From Flavobacteriales bacterium (GTDB taxonomy: Bacteria > Bacteroidota > Bacteroidia > Flavobacteriales_C > GCA-002722245), in the NCBI GenBank assembly GCA_029251005.1, contig JAQXEE010000006.1, forward strand, positions 1-44,627: 44,627 nucleotides of DNA, in the 5' to 3' direction. Below the pieces are notes generated by a model, which was not told the DNA's origin, ran no database searches, and saw nothing but the letters and a program-made list of their open reading frames with translations. Below, piece after piece: positions 9,765-14,856 of the stretch; within the stretch, counting starts at the first letter, position 1; each line of letters starts with the position of its first letter. The translations under genes and the position numbers were made by a program.

Positions 9765-10439
9765 ATGAATAGATTTCAAAACAAGATAACTCTTAACATA
9801 TGTGAAATGGTCTTTATTAAAGACCCAAACTCCAGTGAATTAGGTCGGAATATTTTAAAAGGTAGTATTGACTTAATAGATGAATTAGGTTTTGAAGATT
9901 TCACCTTGAAAAAACTATCCAAAGGAATTTCTTCAACAGAGGCATCAATTTATAGATATTTCGAAAGTAAACATCATTTACTTTCTTATTTAATCCTTTG
10001 GTATTGGGGTTGGCAAGAGTATAGAATGATTCTTAGCATTACCAATATTGACAATTCAAAAGAACAACTTAAAAGAGTAGTTAAAATTTTAACTGAAGAA
10101 ATAAAGGAGGACTCTAATTTTGCAGAAATTAATGAAGTAAAACTAAACAGAATTGTAATTGCAGAAGCCTCAAAAATTTATCTGAAAAAGCAAGTTGATC
10201 ATGACAACTCTCTGGGTTTTTTTAAAAAATACAAAGAAGTTGTTCAAATGGTTTCTGAAATAATCACCTCAATTAATAGCACATATAAATATCCTCACAT
10301 GCTCGTCTCTACAATTATAGAAGGGGCACATCATCAAAGATATTTCGCCCAACACCTACCAAGCCTTACCGATGTTATAGATAATGAAGATTCGATTACA
10401 ACATTTTACCAAAAACTAGCACTAAAGGAAATACAATAA
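9765..10439 (+). CDS. TetR-family transcriptional regulator
   Basis: A 224-residue regulator. The N-terminal DNA-binding domain has the TetR pattern: helix ILKGSIDLIDELGFEDFTLK, then the helix-turn-helix at about 45-69 (LKKLSKGISSTEASIYRYF) ending in the family hallmark YRYFESKHHLLSYL. The rest (about 85-224) is the variable helical ligand and dimerisation domain. It is the first gene of a four-gene unit; its stop overlaps the ATG of the ABC exporter gene by one base (TAATG). By family precedent it should sense a ligand and repress or activate this transport operon. A weak TATAATTG box lies 18 bp upstream. The start could instead be Met15, since the first 14 residues lie outside the family core. 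Confidence 0.88.
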   Translation: MNRFQNKITLNICEMVFIKDPNSSELGRNILKGSIDLIDELGFEDFTLKKLSKGISSTEASIYRYFESKHHLLSYLILWYWGWQEYRMILSITNIDNSKEQLKRVVKILTEEIKEDSNFAEINEVKLNRIVIAEASKIYLKKQVDHDNSLGFFKKYKEVVQMVSEIITSINSTYKYPHMLVSTIIEGAHHQRYFAQHLPSLTDVIDNEDSITTFYQKLALKEIQ

Positions 10440-12115
10440 TGGATACTGAAAAAAAACTATCTCCTTTAAAAAGGTTCTTCTTGTTAATAAAGCCAGATGA
10501 AAAAGAAATTAGGAATGTTTACGTATACGCAGTTTTTTATGGTTTAGTAAATCTATCTTTACCTATAGGCATACAAGCAATAATTAACTTAATTCAAGGT
10601 GGGCAGTTTAGTACTTCATGGGTTATCCTTGTTTTTTTTGTAATACTTGGTGTTGCTATTACTGGAGTTTTACAAGTTTTTCAATTAAAAATCACAGAGC
10701 ATCTACAACAGAAAATTTTTACTAGAGCTGCTTTTGAATTCACATATCGAATTCCTAGAATTAAACTAGAGGAGTTATATAATAAATATGCTCCTGAATT
10801 AATGAATCGATTTTTTGATATTATTTCAATTCAAAAAGGTCTATCAAAAGTTTTAATCGATTTTTCAAGTGCGTCAATTCAAACAATTTTCGGGTTACTC
10901 CTACTCTCACTCTATCATCCTTTCTTTATAGTTTTTAGTTTAATTCTTGTGATATTAGTTTATTCCATTTTTAAACTAACTGCGCAAAGAGGTTTAGAAA
11001 CAAGTTTACTTGAATCAAAAAGTAAATATAATATGGCATCTTGGTTAGAAGAATTAGCAAGAACTGCAGTTACATTTAAACTTGCCGGAGTTACGAAACT
11101 ACCCATGGAACGCACAAACGAAGGAACAAGAGAGTATGTTGACGCTAGAGAAGAACATTTTAAAGTTTTAAAATTCCAATACATTCTCTTAATTGTTTTC
11201 AAAGTTTTGGTAGCATCTGGACTTCTAATTGTAGGGTCCATACTTGTTATTGATCAAAAAATGAATATTGGGCAATTCGTTGCTGCAGAGATTATAATTC
11301 TTTTGGTAATTGGCTCGGTTGAGAAAATTATTTTAAGCTTAGAGAGTATTTATGACATTCTCACTTCTTTAGAAAAAGTTGGACAGGTAACTGATTTAGA
11401 ATTAGAACTAGACGAAGGAATGAATATCTGTACAATTATGAAGGAAAAACCACTTGATATTGAAATGCAGCATGTCTATTTTAAATATCCAGGTAACACA
11501 AAATACATTTTAAAAAATGCTTCTTTAAATATCGAAGCTGGAAGTTCAACACTTATTAAAGGAGACGGAGAATCTGGTAAAACAACACTTCTTTATCTTT
11601 TATCTGGATTATATAAAATTGAGTCTGGGAGTTTATCCATTAATAGGATTCCATTTGGAAACATCAATCCTTACTTATTAAGATCTACGATTGGTGATTG
11701 TTTAATGGATGAATTACTATTTGAAGGAACTTTATTAGAAAACATAACAATGGGTAGAGAAAAAGCTACTTTCGAAAATGTTCAATGGGCTTTTAATTGC
11801 GTTGGATTAACTTCTCTTGCTCAATCTCTTCCTTTAGGTTTTGACACTCAAGTTAAACCAGAAGGAAAACAATTCTCGAAAGGAATTGTAGAAAAGTTAA
11901 TTCTCGCAAGAAGTATCGCTGACAAGCCTAAACTCTTATTAATTAAAGATTTATTTACCTCCCTAACTAATATAGAAAGGGAAAATATATTTAAGTTTTT
12001 AGTTAAAAAAGATAACCCATGGACACTGGTTATCATATCTAGAGATCCATTTGTTAAAAATATAGTTGACAAAACTATTTTAATTGAGGACTGCACTATC
12101 AAAGAATTAAATTAA
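10439..12115 (+). CDS. ABC exporter half-transporter with degenerate ATPase domain
   Basis: A 558-residue half-transporter of the type I secretion/multidrug class. The membrane domain (about 20-310) has roughly six helices and no C39 peptidase domain in front. The nucleotide-binding domain (about 335-558) keeps an aromatic A-loop (YFKYPG) and an intact Walker A, GDGESGKT at 375-382. The rest is altered: the Q-loop glutamine position reads M423 (IGDCLMDELLF), the signature is FSKGI at 479-483 instead of LSGGQ, the Walker B region is LLLIKD at 499-504 instead of LLLLDE, the D-loop SALD reads TSLT, and the switch histidine is R535 (ISRDP). The frame is open throughout. It probably binds nucleotide but hydrolyses poorly or not at all, or pairs with another subunit. 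The HlyD gene starts 6 bp on. Confidence 0.88.
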   Translation: MDTEKKLSPLKRFFLLIKPDEKEIRNVYVYAVFYGLVNLSLPIGIQAIINLIQGGQFSTSWVILVFFVILGVAITGVLQVFQLKITEHLQQKIFTRAAFEFTYRIPRIKLEELYNKYAPELMNRFFDIISIQKGLSKVLIDFSSASIQTIFGLLLLSLYHPFFIVFSLILVILVYSIFKLTAQRGLETSLLESKSKYNMASWLEELARTAVTFKLAGVTKLPMERTNEGTREYVDAREEHFKVLKFQYILLIVFKVLVASGLLIVGSILVIDQKMNIGQFVAAEIIILLVIGSVEKIILSLESIYDILTSLEKVGQVTDLELELDEGMNICTIMKEKPLDIEMQHVYFKYPGNTKYILKNASLNIEAGSSTLIKGDGESGKTTLLYLLSGLYKIESGSLSINRIPFGNINPYLLRSTIGDCLMDELLFEGTLLENITMGREKATFENVQWAFNCVGLTSLAQSLPLGFDTQVKPEGKQFSKGIVEKLILARSIADKPKLLLIKDLFTSLTNIERENIFKFLVKKDNPWTLVIISRDPFVKNIVDKTILIEDCTIKELN

Positions 12116-12121
12116 ATAACA

Positions 12122-13474
12122 ATGCTAAATATTTCTAAAAATAAAATTTCTAAAAAAATACTTGAAAAGCGCTACTCTACTGTTGAAATGGTAGAAGCTA
12201 AAATATCAAGTGAAGTTTTACGACGTGGGATTTACGCTATTTTAATTTGTGGACTTGTAACACTTTTACTCCCATGGACACAAAACATCCGTTCAAATGG
12301 CTATGTTTCAGTTTTAAAACCAAATCAAAAACCTCAAACTATAAATTCTATAATCGGAGGAAGAATCGAAAAATGGTATACTAAAGAAGGAGATTATGTA
12401 AAAGCTGGGGACACTATTTTACAAATTTCAGAAATTATGGACAAATACTTCGATACCGATTTATTAAAAAGGACAAAAGAACAGATTGAATTTAAAAAAC
12501 AAAGTGTAAAAACTTATAGTAATAAAATAAGTGTTCAAGAGCGTCAAATATCATCACTAAATAATCAGTTAAACCAAAAGCTAAACCAAGCTTCAAATAA
12601 ATTAATTCAAGCTGCATTAAAGGTACAGATTGATAGTAACGCCTATGTAGCAGCAGGTACAGATAATGAAATTGCAATTGTCCAATTAAAACGTACAGAC
12701 AGTCTCTATAAAAGTGGGCTAAAGTCATTAACTGATTTTGAAAAGAAAAAGCTAAACCAACAAAAGGTAAAAGCTAAATTTTTAGCCTTTAAAAATAAGT
12801 GGCTAACAGCTCAAAACAACATGATGAATTCAAAGATTGAAATTGAACAAATTAAATCTAAATTCAACTTAGACTTGAATGAACTACAATCAAAGATGCT
12901 CTCTACTGTTTCACAAAAGTTAGATACTGAGAATAGCTTAATTAAACTTGAAAACCAATATGTGAATTATCAAATTAGAAATGGTTTCTATTTTATAACT
13001 GCACCGATAAATGGATACATTACAAAAACCAAAGTAAATGGTATTGGAGAAACAATTAAAGCAGGGCAACAAATTTTAACGATGATGCCTAACGAATATC
13101 AAATGGCAGTAGAAACCTATATCGACCCTATTGATTTACCATTAGTAAGTAAAAATGAAAATGTTAGAATTCAATTTGACGGTTGGCCTGCAATTGTTTT
13201 TTCTGGATGGCCAAACGCAAGTCATGGAACATACGATGGAAAGATATATGCGATTGATCAGTTTATAAGTTCAAATGGAAAGTATAGAGTTTTAATTGCA
13301 CCAGACACTACGAAGTATGCTTGGCCTAAAGCTCTAAGAGTAGGCGCAGGAGCTTCTTCCATGATCTTGTTAAATGATGTGTCTATATTTTATGAACTTT
13401 GGAGAAATATTAATGGCTTCCCTCCTGATTTTTATTCTACAGCTGAACAAAAAGAATTAAAGAATAAAAAATGA
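12122..13474 (+). CDS. HlyD-family periplasmic adaptor (membrane fusion protein)
   Basis: A 450-residue adaptor bridging the inner-membrane ABC exporter and an outer-membrane TolC channel. A cytoplasmic N-terminus is followed by one membrane helix (about 36-52, AILICGLVTLLLPW). The first lipoyl half (about 72-105, NSIIGGRIEKWYTKEGDYVK) is followed by a long alpha-helical hairpin with coiled-coil character (about 110-280). The second lipoyl half (about 290-330, FITAPINGYITKTKVNGIGE) and a beta-barrel domain come last. This order is standard for type I secretion and multidrug adaptors. It lies 6 bp behind the exporter gene, and its stop overlaps the TolC start (ATGA), so expression of all four genes is coupled. 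Confidence 0.9.
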   Translation: MLNISKNKISKKILEKRYSTVEMVEAKISSEVLRRGIYAILICGLVTLLLPWTQNIRSNGYVSVLKPNQKPQTINSIIGGRIEKWYTKEGDYVKAGDTILQISEIMDKYFDTDLLKRTKEQIEFKKQSVKTYSNKISVQERQISSLNNQLNQKLNQASNKLIQAALKVQIDSNAYVAAGTDNEIAIVQLKRTDSLYKSGLKSLTDFEKKKLNQQKVKAKFLAFKNKWLTAQNNMMNSKIEIEQIKSKFNLDLNELQSKMLSTVSQKLDTENSLIKLENQYVNYQIRNGFYFITAPINGYITKTKVNGIGETIKAGQQILTMMPNEYQMAVETYIDPIDLPLVSKNENVRIQFDGWPAIVFSGWPNASHGTYDGKIYAIDQFISSNGKYRVLIAPDTTKYAWPKALRVGAGASSMILLNDVSIFYELWRNINGFPPDFYSTAEQKELKNKK

Positions 13475-14856
13475 TGAAAATAATCTCAATCATATCATTA
13501 ATACTCTTTTCTCAAGTAGGCATAGGCCAAGATTCTGTTTTGGCTTTTGATGAGTTTTTGAGTAAAGTTGTTAACCACCACCCCTTATCTTTATCAGCTT
13601 CGTATAAAGTTAAAATTGGGGACGGAAAACTATTAAAAGCAAGGGGTAGTTTTGACCCTAAGTTAAGTAGTAATCTAACGCAAAAAAGATATAGAAACAA
13701 GGATTACTTTACAAATTTAGATGCTGGGTTTAAAATACCTACTTGGTATGGGATAAACATTAAAGGAGGTTATGAAAATACTAAAGGACTTTATCTAAAT
13801 CCAGAAAGCAATACGCCCAATAATGGATTATGGAATTTAGGAGGGAGTATTAATTTAGGAAAAGGACTTTTGATTGATCAAAGAAGAGCTATTTTAAAAG
13901 AAGCAAAATTAATTTCCGAAAACTCCATTTTAGAGCAAAAACTAGTAATTAATCAATTAATGCTAGAAGCAAGTGTGAACTATTGGAATTGGTTTAAAGC
14001 TTACAATAACCAATTGATTTATAAAAAGGCGTTAACTGTTGCTGAGGAGAGGTTTAAAAACATAAAAACTTCCGCTGAATTTGGAGATAAACCATTTGTT
14101 GATACTTTAAAAAGTTTTATCACTTTACAAGAACGAAAATTAAGCCTCGAACAAAGCAGCCTTTTTTTACAAAACAAACAACGATCATTAGAGGTTTATC
14201 TATGGCATGAAGGCAATATTCCTTTACAAATTGATGGATTAAACCCTGCTATTTATGAGGGAATTACTTTCCCACAACCTCAAAAAGAAATGTCTGCACA
14301 AATTGATAATTGGACTGCTTCTCACCCAGAAATTCTATTAATAAAAAACAATTTGGAAATTTCTAGAATTGATTTAAAGTTGAAAAGAGAAAATATAAAG
14401 CCTACGGTTCAAATAAGATACAATAGCCTAAGTCCTGAAATTGAAGATATTAACTTTAATAATTATGATATAGATAATTACAAATGGGGCGCAAAAGTCT
14501 CTGTCCCTCTATTTCTAAGAAAAGAAAGAGGGGAACTAAGAATCAGTAACTACAAACTAAAAGACTTAGAAGCAAAAACTATTTTAAAGATTGAAAAAAC
14601 TAAGTTTGAAATTGAAAAAAGTTTAAATAACTGGGAAAGTTTTAATAATCAAATAAAACTTCAAATAAAAAATTTAAACGCTTATAAAGATCTATATCTT
14701 GCTGAAAAAAAATTATTTAAACTAGGAGAAAGCTCTTTGTTTTTACTAAACTTTAGAGACAATGAGAGAATAAATGCTCAGATAAAATACATCAAAGTTT
14801 TAACAGATGGTTTAATGGAAAAGGCTGTTTTTGATTATCAAACCTTTAGATATTAG
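13471..14856 (+). CDS. TolC-family outer membrane channel protein
   Basis: A 461-residue outer membrane efflux protein with a Sec signal peptide (MMKIISIISLILFSQVGIGQ). The mature part has the two-repeat TolC pattern: long helices separated by predicted outer-membrane strands, with many Asn, Lys and Gln residues. The segment LMLEASVNYWNWFKAYNNQL (about 170-190) is the usual conserved helix. LKLKRENIKPTVQIRYNSLSP and KWGAKVSVPLFLRKERGELR are the second-repeat helix, strand and helix. It forms the outer channel for the exporter and adaptor upstream; the start overlaps the adaptor stop by four bases. It is the last gene of the operon; no convincing terminator is visible in the next 190 bp. Confidence 0.9.
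   Translation: MMKIISIISLILFSQVGIGQDSVLAFDEFLSKVVNHHPLSLSASYKVKIGDGKLLKARGSFDPKLSSNLTQKRYRNKDYFTNLDAGFKIPTWYGINIKGGYENTKGLYLNPESNTPNNGLWNLGGSINLGKGLLIDQRRAILKEAKLISENSILEQKLVINQLMLEASVNYWNWFKAYNNQLIYKKALTVAEERFKNIKTSAEFGDKPFVDTLKSFITLQERKLSLEQSSLFLQNKQRSLEVYLWHEGNIPLQIDGLNPAIYEGITFPQPQKEMSAQIDNWTASHPEILLIKNNLEISRIDLKLKRENIKPTVQIRYNSLSPEIEDINFNNYDIDNYKWGAKVSVPLFLRKERGELRISNYKLKDLEAKTILKIEKTKFEIEKSLNNWESFNNQIKLQIKNLNAYKDLYLAEKKLFKLGESSLFLLNFRDNERINAQIKYIKVLTDGLMEKAVFDYQTFRY

Follow-up and report, generated by a model that had tools for sequence, protein, structure and literature searches.

ATP-binding cassette (ABC) exporters of the HlyB-LssB-PrtD type act in type I secretion together with HlyD and TolC. 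EmrAB-TolC-type efflux systems likewise join an inner-membrane pump to an HlyD-type adaptor and TolC, but this pump is driven by a gradient and has an MFS rather than an ABC fold. It is well established that heterodimeric exporters can have one degenerate site, as in TmrAB and TM287/288 (PMC8277102). In TmrAB, TM287/288, BmrCD, and TAP, the half carrying the degenerate nucleotide-binding domain (NBD) pairs with a canonical half; in such known pairs, one composite ATP site stays canonical. SbmA/BacA (SLiPT) proteins possess the membrane fold of an ABC exporter that works, or apparently works, without an NBD of its own, and they carry conserved acidic residues in the membrane. SbmA descends from a full-length ABC protein and has lost the coupling helices, and the glutamate ladder is incomplete in YddA, an ABC relative of SbmA (PMC13316013). 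SLiPTs import their substrates, carry an extra TM0, and have no HlyD or TolC partners. Both dead NBDs and ABC folds lacking an NBD are known, each on its own. For a family that resides in an HlyD-TolC export operon and ranges from catalytic-looking through pseudo-enzyme to NBD-less members, we found no description in the open-licence literature searched, outside which most subscription papers lie.

The window analyzed here is a stretch of 44,627 nucleotides from a Flavobacteriales bacterium (contig JAQXEE010000006.1). On its forward strand, an open reading frame at positions 10439–12115 runs from ATG to stop and encodes 558 amino acids without internal stop codons. Pfam assigns ABC_membrane to residues 30–293 and ABC_tran to residues 358–502. 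The protein is an ABCB-like (type IV) exporter with an intact reading frame, and the open reading frame, Pfam, and structure prediction together define it as a degenerate half-exporter consisting of a transmembrane domain (TMD) and a pseudo-NBD. The TMD, which is the conserved part of the protein, comprises residues 8–325 (10460–11413, forward strand), and its linker is the point at which the TMD-only relatives end. The pseudo-NBD covers residues 340–556 (11456–12106, forward strand), and Pfam and the structure models predict that it keeps the ABC NBD fold.

The Walker A sequence GDGESGKTT (residues 375–383; 11561–11587, forward strand, as are all the following motifs) is retained, as is the A-loop Tyr350, which the original prediction had not mentioned. 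The Q-loop Gln is replaced by Met423 (11705–11707), the LSGGQ signature by FSKGI (residues 479–483; 11873–11887), the SALD D-loop by TSLT (residues 507–510; 11957–11968), and the switch His by Arg535 (12041–12043). In place of LLLLDE, the protein reads LLLIKD (11933–11950), in which the Walker B Asp is changed to Lys503 and the catalytic Glu to Asp504. The original prediction had listed the retained GDGESGKT and these five substitutions in an intact frame of 558 codons; the frame held, and every residue was confirmed. It had also proposed that a homodimer would contain two dead sites, and our results agree, since both sites would lack the catalytic Glu, the signature, and the switch His. A pairwise BLAST alignment that preserves the Walker B Asp by a one-residue gap was considered and rejected, because without a gap KPK and the D-loop are as far apart as in the catalytic relatives (KPKVLILDEAFGGME in L108). 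As a control, the same pipeline was applied to five canonical half-exporters from the window genome: all five keep the Gln, LSGGQ or LSVGQ, and the His, while the Walker B residues are DE in four and DD in one. With motifs kept in these controls and all 110 of the related NBDs showing the same losses, chance and alignment error are excluded. Also in this genome, the half-exporter L004 carries LSGGQ and the His together with DD instead of DE at Walker B; such a DD is common in one half of heterodimeric exporters.

The structure model of the window protein shows a complete exporter fold including the NBD (pLDDT 84.9), and its top Foldseek matches in the PDB are PCAT1 (TM-score up to 0.90) and HlyB (8dck; 0.89). 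An NBD-less relative was modeled with the exporter TMD fold (pLDDT 80.9). Neither model contains an extra transmembrane helix, and SbmA is absent from the best 50 matches in both structure searches. The best NCBIfam match is type_I_sec_LssB, at 162 bits against a cut-off of 693, and the other type I secretion ABC families also remain under their cut-offs (PrtD, 137 versus 510; HlyB, 127 versus 726). The protein thus resembles type I secretion exporters in operon composition, fold, and ABC_membrane plus ABC_tran architecture, but differs from them in scoring below the family cut-offs, in lacking the catalytic Glu, switch His, LSGGQ, and Q-loop Gln, in having a TetR gene in its operon, and in having one clade of relatives devoid of any NBD.

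The operon begins with a gene for a TetR-family regulator (9765–10439), and the ABC gene is followed by genes for an HlyD-type periplasmic adaptor (12122–13474), which resembles type_I_hlyD but scores under the cut-off of that family, and a TolC-type outer membrane efflux protein with two OEP repeats (13471–14856), all on the forward strand. Neighboring genes in this TetR-ABC-HlyD-TolC series overlap or lie 6 bp apart. No terminator was found around the operon, and promoter matches there were near chance level. The operon had been described as conserved-looking, and this held, as the ABC-HlyD-TolC order is fixed across the relatives: HlyD directly follows the ABC gene in every family locus with room for it (L143 was counted from its annotation, since ORF calling misplaced its start), and TolC is present in every locus whose flank is long enough. 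TetR lies upstream in about two-thirds of the full-length members; by analogy only, it suggests that the exported substrate is a small compound that is hydrophobic or toxic. Among loci with flanks, no second ABC gene was detected in the operon or flanks, except for one weak match about 4 kb away in L042. No linked NBD gene was found in the flanks of the NBD-less members, nor a linked second pump in the annotated loci.

The window gene belongs to a large and apparently undescribed family of bacterial exporters. A scan of species-representative genomes yielded 66 loci, of which 63 are true relatives (L012–L074; 34–69% identity), nearly all from Bacteroidota. In a survey of the phylum by single-protein search, 53 of 198 genomes contained an orthologue at E below 1e-70, widely separated from generic ABC exporters, the strongest of which reached about 1e-38. 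Some relatives reside on large plasmids of Persicobacter, Aureibacter, and Riemerella. Four further genomes of the genus, including two incomplete ones, lack the window gene; copies from the same taxonomic family (G007–G009) are 44–46% identical to the window protein, and those of several Flavobacteriales MAGs about 67%. This distribution is patchy, and horizontal transfer is conceivable. Outside this set, a more distant sphingomonad version has a wholly eroded NBD: on Novosphingobium and Croceicoccus plasmids, L128, L130, and L143 form ABC-HlyD-TolC operons whose NBDs lack even Walker A, and they are annotated merely as "ABC transporter transmembrane domain-containing protein". The predatory, non-Bacteroidota Vampirovibrio chlorellavorus encodes a near-catalytic member (L067; LSRGQ, DE, and His) with HlyD and TolC. 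Members from Cytophagales and the sister group described below (L044, L046, L047, L050, L056, L057, L059–L061, L065, and L074; L107–L120) bear an N-terminal extension of about 130–250 residues, which has no Pfam match and, by visual inspection only, might be a diverged C39-like domain.

A tree of the membrane domains was built with FastTree (LG) and rooted on canonical exporters, excluding four MAG-contig loci with short or broken frames (L026, L062, L063, and L071). The Bacteroidota family and its sister group are united with a support of 1.0, and the clade holding the window protein has a support of about 0.95. None of the 110 NBDs in this clade has the switch His, the SxGQ signature, or the combination of Asp-Glu and His, while the Walker A Lys is kept in 100 and the following Ser/Thr in 90. 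In the sister group of 15 sequences, 11 retain Asp-Glu and His, though these have lost the Q-loop Gln and mostly LSGGQ. That most of the sister group keeps Asp-Glu and His points to a loss of catalysis at the base of the window clade. By parsimony, the Q-loop and signature would have been lost before Walker B and the His, followed by Walker A several times and the NBD once. The exact number of catalysis losses remains uncertain (4–5 changes by parsimony), since the sister-group node is weakly supported (about 0.6) and the sphingomonad sequences are placed deep. In the near full-length Fluviicola-type members (L055, L058, L064, and L066), Walker A is wholly lost, and their NBDs barely match or miss Pfam ABC_tran.

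The NBD-less members form a single clade of 32 loci in 30 genomes (support 1.0), encoding proteins of 332–369 residues that end at the TMD-NBD linker. Their stop codons lie 8–14 bp inside the following HlyD gene, and this overlap with the HlyD frame leaves no NBD remnant. Judged by open-frame length, about 25 cases in one family sample, 15 in another, and three Rudanella-type records lack the NBD, corresponding to about 43 genomes; the first two figures include the 32 loci of the tree. L179 runs off its contig end and was not counted as a second independent loss. The clade retains the membrane domain, HlyD, and, wherever the flank could be read, TolC. Since the same partners are retained, the family can persist without an NBD of its own.

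Selection on the window copy was judged from its relatives, because its dS to the nearest of them is mostly saturated or nearly so and its own dN/dS is unreliable. In relative pairs with unsaturated dS, dN/dS is 0.02–0.16 for the NBD and 0.014–0.06 for the TMD; among Rudanella-type NBD-less members, the TMD value is 0.05–0.06 at a dS of about 2, which is near saturation. In these relatives, the dead NBD is under purifying selection that is weaker than that on the TMD. The NBD/TMD ratio of dN for the window protein, 1.8–2.3, lies within the range of the degenerate clade (1.1–3.5). Mean site entropy in the degenerate clade is 1.43 bits for the TMD and 2.27 bits for the NBD, the reverse of the pattern in canonical exporters (2.10 and 1.48 bits); as group sizes and divergences differ, only the direction of this comparison was used. 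The proposal that selection maintains the gene is supported by the losses common to its orthologues, the intact frames, the fixed operon order, and dN/dS far below 1 in both domains of the relatives. Of the tests suggested along with it, orthologues with the same substitutions under purifying selection were found, as the losses are fixed in the clade and dN/dS is low in relatives. The opposite outcome, canonical orthologues alongside relaxed selection in a decaying copy, was not met within the clade, and only the deeper sister group keeps catalytic residues.

Conservation in the membrane domain is strong in TM1, TM3, and above all TM6, and few parts are as well conserved as the cytosolic loop motifs. 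Glu284 in the predicted TM6 (11288–11290, forward strand), located by conservation and the structure model, is conserved at 99–100% in the degenerate and NBD-less clades and at 92–94% in the catalytic sister group, but not in canonical exporters, and we infer that it is a candidate coupling residue. Both Glu284 and Glu295 are near-invariant. Glu284, Glu295, and Lys296 also occur in the sister group that retains catalytic residues, so their appearance did not accompany the loss of the ATPase, and no newly gained charged membrane residue marking that loss was found. With respect to the SLiPT glutamate ladder, Glu284 and Glu295 are merely candidates, and proton coupling is an inference. The coupling-loop motifs (ELMNRFFD..QK and ESKxKY..A.WL) are conserved even in the NBD-less members.

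The NBD of the window protein very likely hydrolyzes no ATP, although this is inferred from sequence without an ATPase assay. Transport uncoupled from ATP hydrolysis in cis is favored, because neither a homodimer nor a heterodimer would contain a canonical site and the NBD-less members persist. The best complete explanation is a tripartite exporter that is uncoupled from its own ATPase and driven by an ion gradient in the manner of SbmA/BacA, a reading that we consider as likely to be wrong as right. The window protein would be the inner-membrane part of an exporter made of an ABC-fold membrane domain, an HlyD adaptor, and a TolC duct, and would descend from a type-I-secretion-like ABC exporter that lost hydrolysis by its own NBD. 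In the window lineage, the NBD may persist as a folded module that has a structural or regulatory role and might bind nucleotide; the purifying selection that still acts on it shows that it has some function wherever it is retained. The membrane dimer would move its substrate by gradient-driven alternating access, with Glu284 and Glu295 as candidate residues, and the substrate would then exit through HlyD-TolC to the outside. The evidence is evenly poised on the ion gradient as the driving force, in the absence of a transport or ion-coupling assay. Gradient drive, as proposed here, would align the family with EmrAB-TolC. Unlike the SLiPTs, the family keeps its coupling loops, is tied to an export duct, and shows no extra TM in the models; moreover, an ABC-exporter TMD without an NBD is found only in the NBD-less clade, whereas the window protein has a degenerate NBD. 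The greatest puzzle is that, in contrast to SbmA, coupling loops are conserved even where the NBD is gone; no other observation speaks more strongly for a partner in the cytosol, which might be an ATPase.

Such a partner is the basis of the rival in which a motor acts in trans, with a canonical half-exporter forming a heterodimer, or a free NBD docking on the coupling loops, to supply ATP hydrolysis. In its favor are the conserved coupling-loop residues of the NBD-less members and the window genome itself, which encodes separate NBDs as well as five or more canonical half-exporters. Unlike the known heterodimeric exporters, however, the window protein has no detected linked partner and has lost both of its contributions to a site. 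Given known ABC geometry, we infer that pairing with a canonical half would restore no canonical site, because the signature and the Walker B/His are both gone, leaving zero fully canonical ATP sites. The NBD-less members, too, have no linked NBD gene, and the suggested second half-transporter with complementary motifs was not found linked, apart from the weak match in L042. The partner ATPase raised in the original prediction is thus weakened and unlikely, but not excluded. A ligand-gated channel, in which nucleotide bound at Walker A controls the opening of a passive pore through the membrane domain into HlyD-TolC, similar to CFTR gating but without a complete cycle, would account for the retention of Walker A after loss of the hydrolysis residues and for the low NBD dN/dS and predicted ABC NBD fold. 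Against it, CFTR keeps one hydrolytic site, and nucleotide gating cannot be general in view of several independent losses of Walker A and of a clade in which the operon survives deletion of the NBD. We regard the channel as improbable, although it also remains open. The third possibility raised, nucleotide binding only, is weakly supported by the Walker A kept in about 90 of 110 NBDs, but the same losses and the NBD-less clade show that nucleotide binding cannot be essential to the family.

Alternatively, the protein might not transport at all but hold HlyD-TolC in place as a scaffold, or work for a different pump or a sensor, as the conservation of its cytosolic loop motifs and the invariant adjacency of HlyD might suggest. 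This is very unlikely, since TM1, TM3, and above all TM6 are conserved beyond the apparent needs of a scaffold and the annotated loci contain no further linked pump. The absence of the gene from the four same-genus genomes indicates that it is probably dispensable and would fit a decaying pseudogene. That explanation was rejected and is all but excluded by the intact 558-codon frame and operon, the losses common to all orthologues, and the purifying selection in relatives.

Returning to the gradient-driven exporter, a bolder reading, against which we lean slightly, is that the family arose when an ABC exporter became a secondary transporter driven by a gradient, for the second time and independently, in this case as an exporter locked to HlyD-TolC. 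The intermediates would all be alive, mostly within Bacteroidota: members with catalytic residues present, with a pseudo-NBD retaining Walker A, with Walker A lost, and with the NBD deleted. ATP hydrolysis defines ABC exporters, and annotating members of this family as "ABC transporter ATP-binding protein" is misleading. A widespread family that keeps its membrane machine and envelope partners while losing, and once deleting, its motor provides a natural series for the passage from primary to secondary pump, which also bears on why a dead NBD is kept. This series is open to experiment, as NBD-less (Rudanella) and pseudo-NBD (Tenacibaculum and Crocinitomix) members occur in named, cultured strains.
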